17,089 bases of DNA from Ignavibacteria bacterium (lineage in GTDB: Bacteria > Bacteroidota > Ignavibacteria > Ignavibacteriales > Melioribacteraceae): assembly GCA_027347545.1 (NCBI GenBank), contig DAIEQT010000143.1:1-17089 (forward strand), read 5' to 3'. Under the pieces are notes generated by a model, which saw nothing but the letters and a program-made list of their open reading frames with translations, ran no database searches and was not told where the DNA came from. Shown here one piece after another: positions 2,876-7,176 of the stretch; positions within the stretch are counted from its first letter, which is position 1, and every line of letters begins with the position of its first letter. The translations under genes and the position numbers were made by a program.

Positions 2876-3108
2876 CAGATGAGCAGTTAGAAAAGGAAAA
2901 CGCAGAATTGTCGGAAGTTATGCACGAGAAGGTAAAAGAACTTGCCAAATATTTTGACAGTGTTCAGATATTTTGTACAAAGCATGAGTCTGATAAAATT
3001 GGTACATCACATCTGACGGAATGTTCTGGAAATTATTTTGCACGTTATGGCCAGATTAAGTTATGGGTAGAGAAACAATCATTGAACGGAGAAGAGATTG
3101 ATTCGTGA
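2872..3108 (+). CDS. Small conserved phage protein between portal and MuF
   Basis: A 78-residue protein of unknown function. It starts with a charged helical stretch (residues 1-27) and continues with a compact segment containing IFCTKHESD, a second Cys, and GNYFARYGQIKLWVE. This FARYGQ-type motif is one I associate with short proteins next to portal and MuF genes in other phages, but I cannot name a role. The gene overlaps the portal by 4 bases (ATGA) and the following MuF gene by 11 bases, so it looks like an integral part of the head operon. Two Cys and two His are present but are not spaced as a classical zinc finger. Confidence 0.75.
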   Translation: MTDEQLEKENAELSEVMHEKVKELAKYFDSVQIFCTKHESDKIGTSHLTECSGNYFARYGQIKLWVEKQSLNGEEIDS

Positions 3109-4882
3109 AGAAGTAAATATCCGTCTGGCAAAATTACTCTCAAAAGCTGATGCTGATGTTGAGAAGATTTTAAAAGAGTTCGAACCAAATTTAATTCGCG
3201 CTTATAAAAGTTCTCTTGAAAACATAAAAAAAGAAATTGCATGGATCTTTGAGAAGTACGGTGCGAAGGTTACTTACGGCCAGATGCAAGCTTATAATCG
3301 TTTAACAGGAATTGAGAAAGAGATTGCTCAAGAGTTGAAAAATCTAACCGGAGAAACAGTTAAGCTTACTACAAAAAAATTCAAAGAGACATTCACTGAA
3401 GGATATTACAGAACCGCTTTTGCTCTCGAAGTTGGAACCGGATTCAAACTTGGTTTTGGAACATTGAATAAAAGTTTAGTCGAAGCAGCTATACTAAATC
3501 CGTTGGACCGTTTGAAGTGGACTGAACGGATGGGAATAACAACAGAAACTTATACTAGAGTTATCAATCAAGAAGTTGCGACTGGGTTAAATCAAGGGAC
3601 CGGTTATGTGAACATTGCCAGAGCGATAACAGATAAATTTGGAGGCAAGGGTTTAACCGAACCTGGTTTGTACCCGCGGATGTTGAGAATTGTACAAACG
3701 GAAGGACACCGGGTTCAAAATGCTGCTCGAGTTACGGCGTTTGATAAATCTGAAAGAGCAGCGGAACTGTTAGGAGTGGAAACAGAGCGTGTTTGGTTAC
3801 ATCCGGATGGTGTGAAAGAGCCACGTGAAGATCATATCAAGATGAATGATAAACCAGCCAACAAAGAAGGGAAATTTATTCTTCCGGATGGAACTGTTAC
3901 CGATGGACCTGGACTGACAGGGAAACCAGAACATGATATAAATTGTTTTCCAGGTTATATAAACGTTAACACACCAACGCAAATCAAGGGATTGACAAAA
4001 AGATATTATGAAGGTGAATTAATTGAGATTACTACAGTTGGTGGCATAAAGCTCGCCGGAACCCCGAATCACCCAGTACTTACGCAACATGGTTGGGTTG
4101 CTTTGAATTCGCTTAATGAGGGAAGCCACATATTCAGCGCAGGATTTCGTAATGTAATGTCTTCCCGAGATCCAAATATAGATAATACTCCAATTGCGTT
4201 TCGCGAGATATTTAATTTTGCGAACATCATTTTTCCGCACAAGAGGGCTGCCATCATCACAGAGAATTTCCACGGCGACGGGATCATAGGCGATGTCAAG
4301 ATTATAACGCCCAAAGGCTTTCTGAGGAACTCCCTCCAAATCATATTTAGCAAGCCATTTTTCAAAAACAGTTTCCTCTTTACCGAGTTTGGAAAGAGTT
4401 CGTTCTTTAGTTATCGCTTTTTTATGCATCTCCTCCTCTGGTATTACTCTACCTTTAACCGCCTCGTGAGCCTTTGCGTAGAGTTTTTGTCTCTCACTTT
4501 TAGAAAGGCTTTCCCATCTATTGATCAAAGCTTCACTAAGATTACGAGGAGTGATATTGTTCTCCCTCAAAATTCTATAAATAATCTGTCGGCTGACTTT
4601 GAATCTCTTTGCAAGAGCATGGACAGAAATTCCCTTGTTGTAAAGGACGACAACATTCTTACTATTAATCGAAGTGTTTTTAGAGGGCATGTTTATAATC
4701 TCGAAACAATTAATAATTATTACCTTGTAAATATAGACAAAAACAATGACAATATGATAATTGCTCACAATTGTCATTGTACTTCTTTTCTGAAAATCAA
4801 AATGATGCCTAAAAGAGGGCGGCAGATAAATCCGGATGTGAATTATACCGACTGGTTCCAGTTGAGAATAGCCGCAAACTAA
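3098..4882 (+). CDS. MuF/SPP1 gp7-like head morphogenesis protein, intein-containing precursor
   Basis: Minor head protein of the MuF (SPP1 gp7) type, which binds the portal and takes part in early head assembly and DNA ejection. The precursor is 594 residues. The N-extein (1-282) has a long helical region and then the MuF domain with RIVQTEGHRVQNAA and EREDHIKM-like blocks (PREDHIKMN, near 241-249). The C-extein starts at residue 559. Joining the exteins gives a 318-residue protein with the sequence HDIN|CHCTSF, which restores the conserved INCxC motif at the end of the MuF domain. The start codon is TTG at 3098, preceded by GGAG at 3089-3092. No in-frame ATG gives a better start, and it overlaps the upstream gene by 11 bases. 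The insertion carries splicing motifs (see the intein entry), so it is a spliceable element, not a domain fusion. Confidence 0.92.
   Translation: MIREEVNIRLAKLLSKADADVEKILKEFEPNLIRAYKSSLENIKKEIAWIFEKYGAKVTYGQMQAYNRLTGIEKEIAQELKNLTGETVKLTTKKFKETFTEGYYRTAFALEVGTGFKLGFGTLNKSLVEAAILNPLDRLKWTERMGITTETYTRVINQEVATGLNQGTGYVNIARAITDKFGGKGLTEPGLYPRMLRIVQTEGHRVQNAARVTAFDKSERAAELLGVETERVWLHPDGVKEPREDHIKMNDKPANKEGKFILPDGTVTDGPGLTGKPEHDINCFPGYINVNTPTQIKGLTKRYYEGELIEITTVGGIKLAGTPNHPVLTQHGWVALNSLNEGSHIFSAGFRNVMSSRDPNIDNTPIAFREIFNFANIIFPHKRAAIITENFHGDGIIGDVKIITPKGFLRNSLQIIFSKPFFKNSFLFTEFGKSSFFSYRFFMHLLLWYYSTFNRLVSLCVEFLSLTFRKAFPSIDQSFTKITRSDIVLPQNSINNLSADFESLCKSMDRNSLVVKDDNILTINRSVFRGHVYNLETINNYYLVNIDKNNDNMIIAHNCHCTSFLKIKMMPKRGRQINPDVNYTDWFQLRIAAN
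3944..4771 (+). mobile_element. Intein inserted in the MuF domain (276 residues)
   Basis: Self-splicing protein element, residues 283-558 of the precursor. Block A: Cys1 with CFPGYINVNTPTQIKG. Block B: GTPNHPVLT with the TxxH signature at intein residues 40-43 (nt 4061-4072). Block F: HVYNLETINNYYLVN from residue 249. Block G: IIAHN with penultimate His and terminal Asn, followed by Cys as the +1 nucleophile (4772-4774). All residues needed for the standard class 1 splicing pathway are visible. Residues about 70-240 on the sense strand are rich in Phe, Ser and Leu, with no LAGLIDADG, HNH or other recognisable sense-strand endonuclease. This fits antisense translation of a Lys/Glu-rich gene, and such a gene (an endonuclease) is encoded on the - strand. 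The boundaries are set by Cys1 and HN/C and are exact if splicing is canonical. Confidence 0.93.
4019..4690 (-). CDS. HTH plus Vsr-like (EDxHD-type) homing endonuclease, antisense inside the intein
   Basis: Likely homing endonuclease that spreads the intein by cutting intein-free MuF genes. The 223-residue protein has a helix-turn-helix (about 12-48: KGISVHALAKRFKVSRQIIY, then RNLSEA), a basic linker of the kind seen in phage homing enzymes (NRWESLSKSERQKLYAKAH, 57-75, then VKG), and a Vsr-like nuclease core: Glu candidates at 105-110, RYNLDIAY with Asp132, VAVEI with Glu141, DDG at 145-147, and RKIKYLAKRNWSIIYIW (157-173). The start chosen is the ATG at 4690. An ATG at 4777 gives a 29-residue longer form, but that extension is hydrophobic, Ile/Val-rich and antisense to intein block F, and it precedes the HTH. 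A GAG lies about 9 bases before the ATG; no convincing promoter is seen. The codons pair in exact register with the sense intein codons. A His expected after the DG turn is not seen, so activity is uncertain. Confidence 0.85.
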   Translation of the reverse strand: MPSKNTSINSKNVVVLYNKGISVHALAKRFKVSRQIIYRILRENNITPRNLSEALINRWESLSKSERQKLYAKAHEAVKGRVIPEEEMHKKAITKERTLSKLGKEETVFEKWLAKYDLEGVPQKAFGRYNLDIAYDPVAVEILCDDGSPLVRKNDVRKIKYLAKRNWSIIYIWISGRHYITKSCAEYVASLIKRIQSNPTMLRKYWVIRGSGELYATNCSNLN

Positions 4883-6921: not shown

Positions 6922-6945
6922 CAACTTTAATTCGTGGAGAGAAAA

Positions 6946-7176
6946 ATGAAGTGTGAAATTTGTGGTTGTGATTATAGCGATTCAGTTTACCATCTGCATA
7001 TCCAAAGATGCAAGCCGATACCTTCCGAGGAAGAATTGAAGCTTCAAGAAGAATTAAAGCTTCAAGAAGAATTAAAGCTTCAGGAAGAGAACACATCTAG
7101 GCCTGTTCCTATAGAAGATCAAAATCAGCCAGCACCGGATATTGATTTTCCAAGAAAGAAAAAAGCAGGTAAGTAA
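6946..7176 (+). CDS. Small Cys/His-rich protein with EELKLQ repeats, unknown function
   Basis: A 76-residue protein I do not recognise. The N terminus MKCEICGCDYSDSVYHLHIQRC has a CxxC pair followed by HxH and a further Cys, a plausible one-zinc finger of C2HC or C2H2 type. Then come three exact copies of the hexapeptide EELKLQ (charged, helix-forming) and a Pro-rich tail ending in a basic patch (PRKKKAGK). The ATG at 6946 is chosen over an in-frame GTG at 6934 because GTGGAGAG then serves as the ribosome site 5 bases away. It lies between the coat terminator and the head-tail connector gene and overlaps the latter by 1 base. A role in head completion or host takeover is possible, but neither is shown. 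Confidence 0.7.
   Translation: MKCEICGCDYSDSVYHLHIQRCKPIPSEEELKLQEELKLQEELKLQEENTSRPVPIEDQNQPAPDIDFPRKKKAGK
7030..7083 (+). repeat. Three tandem 18-bp repeats (EELKLQ)
   Basis: Three head-to-tail copies of an 18-base unit of the form GAAGAATTRAAGCTTCAR at 7030-7047, 7048-7065 and 7066-7083, differing only in synonymous third positions. They encode EELKLQ three times in frame inside the small Cys/His protein. A variable copy number between relatives would be expected from slippage. Confidence 0.95.

Follow-up and report, generated by a model that had tools for sequence, protein, structure and literature searches.

Inteins are usually described as one polypeptide that carries both splicing and endonuclease domains, and in those of the PI-SceI type an in-frame LAGLIDADG or HNH endonuclease domain lies between blocks B and F. 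Homing endonucleases of the EDxHD / Vsr-like kind, with a full catalytic set of E, D, H and D, are also known: I-Bth0305I belongs to a group I intron and is encoded on the same strand as the host gene, and the EDxHD / Vsr-like endonucleases of fractured-gene split inteins, reportedly described by Dassa et al. in 2009, are said to have the same orientation. In addition, there are nuclear rDNA group I introns whose homing endonuclease genes are antisense. The ShiLan domain, as presented in a recent paper (Arsenault, Gosselin and Gogarten 2025, PMC11855218), is a hidden HNH gene that runs in the direction of its host gene and comes without splicing domains. Here, we describe a locus that is very probably a mobile intein whose splicing element and homing endonuclease are separate, codon-aligned genes that share one piece of DNA, each on its own strand.

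The window, that is, the whole stretch of 17,089 nucleotides analysed, is a tailed-phage structural operon, and its recognised genes, which encode a terminase, an SPP1-type portal, a MuF-like minor head protein, a DUF4355 scaffold and a P22-type coat protein, are all located on the + strand. The open reading frame of the MuF-like minor head protein (3098-4882, +) is broken by 276 residues within the motif NCHC, between its N and the following CHC. These residues constitute the intein (3944..4771, +, 276 aa), which is thus inserted before the first Cys of CHC and is flanked by the N-extein (3098..3943, +) and by a C-extein that begins with CHCTSF and includes the stop codon (4772..4882, +). The N-extein alone matched the minor head protein family phrog_115 (E=6.9e-37), and the whole precursor matched Phage_Mu_F below the cut-off (E=4.7e-4). 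Elsewhere in the window, a short ORF with a tandem LQEELK-type repeat (6934-7176) was observed after the coat gene and ahead of later structural ORFs.

The splicing motifs of the intein can be read directly as Cys1, TPNHPVLT, HVYNLET and AHN followed by Cys. Block B (TPNHPVL, 4061..4081, +) is dual-coded with the C-terminal part of the antisense nuclease, block F (HVYNLET, 4688..4708, +) begins with a His codon, CAT, that is the antisense ATG start codon, and block G (IIAHN, 4757..4771, +, then Cys+1) lies opposite an extended -10 sequence in part of the relatives. With the single window sequence, Pfam and NCBIfam recognised the intein weakly (PF14890, E=3e-7, below the cut-off), and a PHROG 'head protein' family, phrog_15127, spanned most of it (E=9.7e-29). 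A profile of 20 relatives (A2) matched solved inteins with a best E-value of 2.1e-8; in Pfam searches of the 20 sense inteins (E<=0.1), 19 matched PF14890, each of the other Hint models was seen in 2 and Fpg-like_C once, and no LAGLIDADG or HNH model was found in the sense frame. The two splicing halves were modelled as a Hint fold with pLDDT of about 90 or more, and the centre (residues 101-229), mostly under 50, was predicted to be mostly disordered. Inteins occupied the top rows of a Foldseek search with this model, the best being the Mtu RecA intein (E=1.4e-3, prob 1.00), with no match at E<=0.001. These results bear out the first-pass annotation, which had proposed an intein at this position without a sense-strand endonuclease in its centre. 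Across the family, C1 was present in 96/96 resolved loci (5/101 were unresolved) and a terminal Asn then Cys in 85/101 rows, with 9 unresolved and 7 reading otherwise; from its intact motifs, the intein would be expected to splice. A group I intron was also considered and rejected, as no Rfam family reached its gathering score in the window and the sense frame is open throughout.

The candidate homing endonuclease is encoded on the opposite strand by a gene of 223 aa (4019..4690, -) and consists of an HTH at about residues 10-45, linker helices and a Vsr/I-Bth0305I-like nuclease domain at about residues 100-219. An HTH plus a Vsr-like endonuclease had been suggested for this strand beforehand, and both were recovered: the HTH of ORF 4690-4019 was of resolvase type in the window search, and the confident model of the product (pLDDT 93.9) matched Vsr/I-Bth0305I and thus has the nuclease fold of the EDxHD / Vsr-like homing endonucleases. 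The nuclease half went unseen in single-sequence searches of Pfam, NCBIfam, PHROGs and the PDB, and profiles and the model were needed to recognise it. Its Foldseek E-value was weak (0.096), the stronger Z coming from a re-alignment of Foldseek's own list, and 3r3p was absent from the matches listed by the larger profile A3. Three conserved residues, E106, D132 and E141, were all kept in 140/142 sequences. In the annotated phage records examined, the nuclease was unannotated or 'hypothetical'.

Because the two frames are codon-aligned, with position 1 of the nuclease codon paired with position 3 of the sense codon, the differences between related pairs can tell the two strands apart. Both frames are open in the identical phase in the window and in 20/22 phage loci examined. 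We compared pairs of 60-98% intein identity, leaving pairs with small counts out of the fastest-position tallies of some segments; the 96 pairs share members and the loci are related, so that neither the pair nor the locus counts are independent. In the extein, sense position 3 was the fastest in 96/96 pairs, and the same was true of intein residues 1-26 (84/85 informative pairs) and of the block F-G segment (65/69 pairs). In the intein centre, sense position 1, which is the antisense wobble position, was the fastest in 96/96 overlapping pairs; with a slightly different overlap boundary, it was the fastest in 95/96 pairs and in 14/15 pairs without a common member. Within residues 27-70, where block B lies over the C-terminal part of the nuclease, positions 1 and 3 were both slowed across relatives. 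Between the window and its nearest relative found (L135, a contig binned as Melioribacter roseus), the values for the centre were 0.48, 0.22 and 0.35 at positions 1, 2 and 3, respectively, and identity was 134/223 for the antisense protein and 43% for the sense centre. Given the nuclease protein and the codon usage of 13 window genes, 11.9 sense-frame stops were expected in the window and 0 were found (P=5e-7). The pattern of codon positions and the missing sense stops together indicate that both strands are coding and both frames are kept; in the centre, one of them is maintained for the function of its protein and the other so that it stays readable. The earlier proposal of a separate gene in reverse orientation is supported.

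The signals for starting the nuclease were counted in 81 loci: 96 of 101 inteins had a resolved first residue, 82 of these remained below 92% identity, and one (L043) had no recognised block F. An UNVERIFIED record with broken frames (L021, GE_vB_HIL) and a free-standing copy (L010) were left out of the codon and start-site counts, and as the 81 loci are related, the counts below do not represent independent events. The nuclease start codon (ATG in 66 loci, GTG in 14, TTG in 1) falls on the residue before V-Y-N-L in 69/81 loci and three codons on in 10/81. GGAGG or GAGG occurs opposite block F in 58/81 loci, compared with 13.7 expected when the sense protein was kept and codons were redrawn from the same gene, and 10/81 loci have no tested Shine-Dalgarno word at all. 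A perfect extended -10, TGnTATAAT, lies opposite block G in 21/81 loci, compared with 0.6 expected, and is missing in the other 60; in 19 of the 21, the distance to the start codon is exactly 45 nt. This sequence was found opposite 1/1248 extein windows and 0/26 control block F-G stretches. These 26 control stretches came from 25 loci, several being the same intein in related genomes; the residue preceding block F was His in 1 of them, GAGG was seen by eye in 5, and the third block-F residue was Asp in 26/26, while it is mostly Asn in the antisense-nuclease intein family.

In the window itself, neither GAGG nor a perfect -10 is present. Ahead of the nuclease start there is just GAGAT (4698..4702, -), which weakly resembles a Shine-Dalgarno sequence and leaves the window in the class without a Shine-Dalgarno word. 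The edge of block G carries TATCAT (4754..4759, -), possibly a weak -10, which taken by itself in the window does not exceed chance. A general sigma-70 promoter scan gave 3 sites with 3.5 expected, which is at chance, and was set aside as evidence; the window's own expression signals may thus be weak or of another type. The first-pass annotation had held that the nuclease would need its own promoter, which agrees with the codon-selected extended -10 and Shine-Dalgarno sequences of part of the relatives and less well with the weak copies in the window. Start signals are conserved in part of the family and can be seen there directly, and from them we infer antisense transcription from an embedded promoter. 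This promoter, together with the ribosome site, is the least expected part of the arrangement. It is likely, with somewhat less assurance than for the two-strand organization itself, that these loci represent a widespread class of inteins in which block G doubles as an extended -10 and block F as the ribosome-binding site and start codon of a codon-aligned antisense homing endonuclease, so that any host gene the element enters would receive a promoter along with it.

Comparison of related phages indicates that such inteins have moved. In a relative of the window, phage Snoke, an 816-nt precise insertion is seen in comparison with K1ind2, with flanks that are 89% (729 nt) and 92% (315 nt) identical; this empty site is that of the relative, not of the window's own MuF. 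PMC6776784 states that K1ind2 is without the insertion. Snoke and LSPA1 differ at 141/1092 extein bases and at 15/615 bases of the overlap, and Vivi2 and Angelicage differ at 84/2376 extein bases and at 111/747 of the overlap. Divergence of intein and extein is thus out of step, which points to separate histories of the intein and the host gene, as homing predicts. Side by side, Gordonia phage Kewpiedoll (L014) and Vivi2 (L002) have alike MuF exteins near the site and two clearly different inteins of the family there, which suggests repeated invasion of the same site.

Natural controls were also found. Acinetobacter phage IME285 (L010, 455-1348) carries a free-standing nuclease that is convergent with an intein-free MuF gene and overlaps its 3' end, and the strand opposite this nuclease is full of stops; the free-standing gene is possibly an ancestor of the intein form or an escapee from it. 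Phage P1068 carries a copy 100% identical to it. Conservation of the antisense frame in relatives, the check proposed initially, gave a mixed outcome: the frame is under selection generally, but the result named beforehand as a refutation did occur in 2/160 loci kept from the sense-profile searches. These two, L173 and L175, keep C1, TPNH and HN followed by C and have a nuclease that is truncated or disrupted. Such a small number of damaged copies beside many intact ones agrees with the decay expected of homing endonucleases. In both of them the His before block F is replaced, by Val or Tyr, which fits the view that this His serves the antisense start codon; it is not essential to intact copies, since 12/81 intact loci start elsewhere, mostly three codons on. 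In another locus, L179, the nuclease is partial and the intein frame is incomplete as well. Copies with decayed nucleases could help to separate the residues needed for splicing from those kept for the hidden gene.

Among 50,697 phage records, 128 matched the antisense protein, 126 of them over >=80% of its length. A search of viral contigs with the sense profile yielded at least 566 relatives, and the nuclease was found, always antisense, in 80/80 kept loci; in species genomes it was found in 64/80 kept loci, again always antisense, and the 16 without such a nuclease all ranked with the weakest matches, at E-values of 1e-7 or worse. The layout is that of a widespread family, which the first-pass annotation had not noticed. 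As the search profiles span the overlap, kept loci favour intact copies, and these counts are not estimates of prevalence. The titles of the records with nuclease loci name Ignavibacteriota, Bacteroidota, Actinobacteria, Chloroflexi, Planctomycetes, Proteobacteria, Spirochaetes, Chlamydiae and a cyanobacterium. The nuclease as a query found one homologue in a search of 5.8 billion proteins and no DNA match in viral contigs or in 295 other genomes of the phylum; with a single sense intein as the query, viral contigs gave no relative, and many more were reached with sense alignments. One of 29 control intein loci (L130) gave a weak match to the nuclease profile (13.2 bits, E=0.0025).

The family is common in the capsid genes of tailed phages. 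The N-exteins of 62/82 non-redundant loci share one BLAST cluster with the window MuF, and the common site is N followed by C(R/K/H)C. Other host genes encode RtcB, with exteins matching PF01139 at positions 1-265 and 278-426, the terminase large subunit (L099), a head maturation protease (L036) and, in virus Rctr197k (L008, 616-1968), a deaminase (PF00383; the N-extein matched cytidine/deoxycytidylate deaminase). The Rctr197k gene is annotated as 'putative head morphogenesis protein', a name that probably derives from the intein. In Escherichia phage KMB36 (L017) the intein occupies a second MuF site, before CRARDG, unlike that in Snoke, and in Mycobacterium phage Sejanus (L004) it lies before CTIDG, seemingly upstream of the usual site.

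We propose that the sense strand is translated within MuF, and that the two splicing halves would then fold together, excise the intein and ligate MuF. The sense centre would be a linker, for the most part disordered, in which the absence of stop codons is the main constraint to be seen. From the other strand, the HTH plus Vsr/I-Bth0305I-type nuclease probably cuts intein-free MuF alleles, and repair would copy the intein in. In much of the family, blocks F and G carry, on the other strand, the Shine-Dalgarno site, the start codon and the extended -10, so that the element would bring its own expression signals into the host gene. Splicing would be uncoupled from homing, the nuclease being independent of the MuF message. 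Since the recognised window genes are on the + strand, an antisense transcript would meet that of the operon; early expression of the nuclease and late splicing is plausible.

Several alternative explanations were weighed against this proposal. A codon-aligned antisense phase makes spurious long ORFs relatively easy, and the sense motif FHGD is well conserved, as would be expected if the sense centre were a real domain and the antisense frame were an artefact held open by codon bias. However, the fast position 1 of the centre in all 96 pairs, on which this hypothesis was rejected, leaves it next to no probability: the antisense model is confident and that of the sense centre is not, the FHGD codons of the window are the reverse complement of the nuclease VAVE codons, and the free-standing IME285 gene persists opposite a strand full of stops. 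Loss of splicing is another hypothesis. Under it, MuF was invaded by a nuclease gene, and what is left of the sense frame would be tolerated as a loop, the situation suggested for ShiLan, whose insertions are in frame and have no splicing domains (PMC11855218). The splicing ends, however, are under sense constraint with position 3 the fastest, the halves model as a Hint fold, C1 and the terminal Asn-Cys are kept as given above, and L173 and L175 keep their splicing motifs despite decayed nucleases, making this loss very improbable.

Expression of the nuclease by read-through from oppositely oriented early genes rather than from an intein promoter is unlikely overall but deserves more weight than the other alternatives, as 60 of the 81 loci have no perfect extended -10. 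In RCIP0015 (L009, 1892-2238) and MSW-3 (L011, 1500-2198), moreover, the nuclease is directly preceded by small genes on its own strand and might be co-transcribed with an oppositely oriented operon. On the other hand, no recognised window gene is oriented in this way, and in 21 loci codon choice builds a promoter inside the intein, at a fixed spacing in 19. Finally, convergent transcription across MuF would be expected to oppose MuF, so that the antisense transcript could mainly regulate this gene, by interference or RNA duplex, with the nuclease secondary. The constraint at the protein level, the intact E/D/E triads and the presence of the family in RtcB, terminase and deaminase genes make such a role highly doubtful. 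The most likely explanation is thus still an intein with its homing endonuclease encoded antisense. If this is true, one DNA stretch holds two unrelated functional proteins plus regulatory signals, the intein must keep the codes for its protein, the antisense protein and their regulation in that stretch, and separate overlapping genes could allow homing to be regulated apart from the host protein.

In the literature searched, an antisense endonuclease gene in an intein was not found described, the nearest case being ShiLan (PMC11855218); there is about an even chance that a 2025 preprint by Gosselin on non-canonical actinophage inteins, cited there, already covers the element, which Gordonia phages carry. 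ShiLan resembles the present element in having an endonuclease out of frame in a host gene whose frame stays open and differs in that here the gene is antisense, the nuclease is of another family and a splicing domain is present. The likeness to IME285 is closer in one respect, the same nuclease family convergent with MuF, but there the MuF gene is uninterrupted and no intein exists. With the PI-SceI type, the element shares Hint blocks A, B, F and G, a conserved site in the host protein and an endonuclease between B and F; in contrast, its endonuclease lies outside the translated precursor, is encoded separately on the opposite strand from a start codon of its own, to which much of the family adds a ribosome-binding site and a promoter-like site, and has another nuclease fold. 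With I-Bth0305I and the split-intein endonucleases associated with Dassa, it shares the Vsr-like fold and the tie to splicing elements, whereas here the gene is antisense and overlaps the splicing sequence itself; compared to the full EDxHD set, the E, D and E residues named above are kept and no His equivalent is established. With the group I introns that hold antisense endonuclease genes, it shares the antisense orientation inside a splicing element, but splicing here is at the protein level, so that the opposite strand must also stay open. Taken together, the parts are of known kinds, and it is their arrangement that sets this element apart from the systems described in the literature searched.
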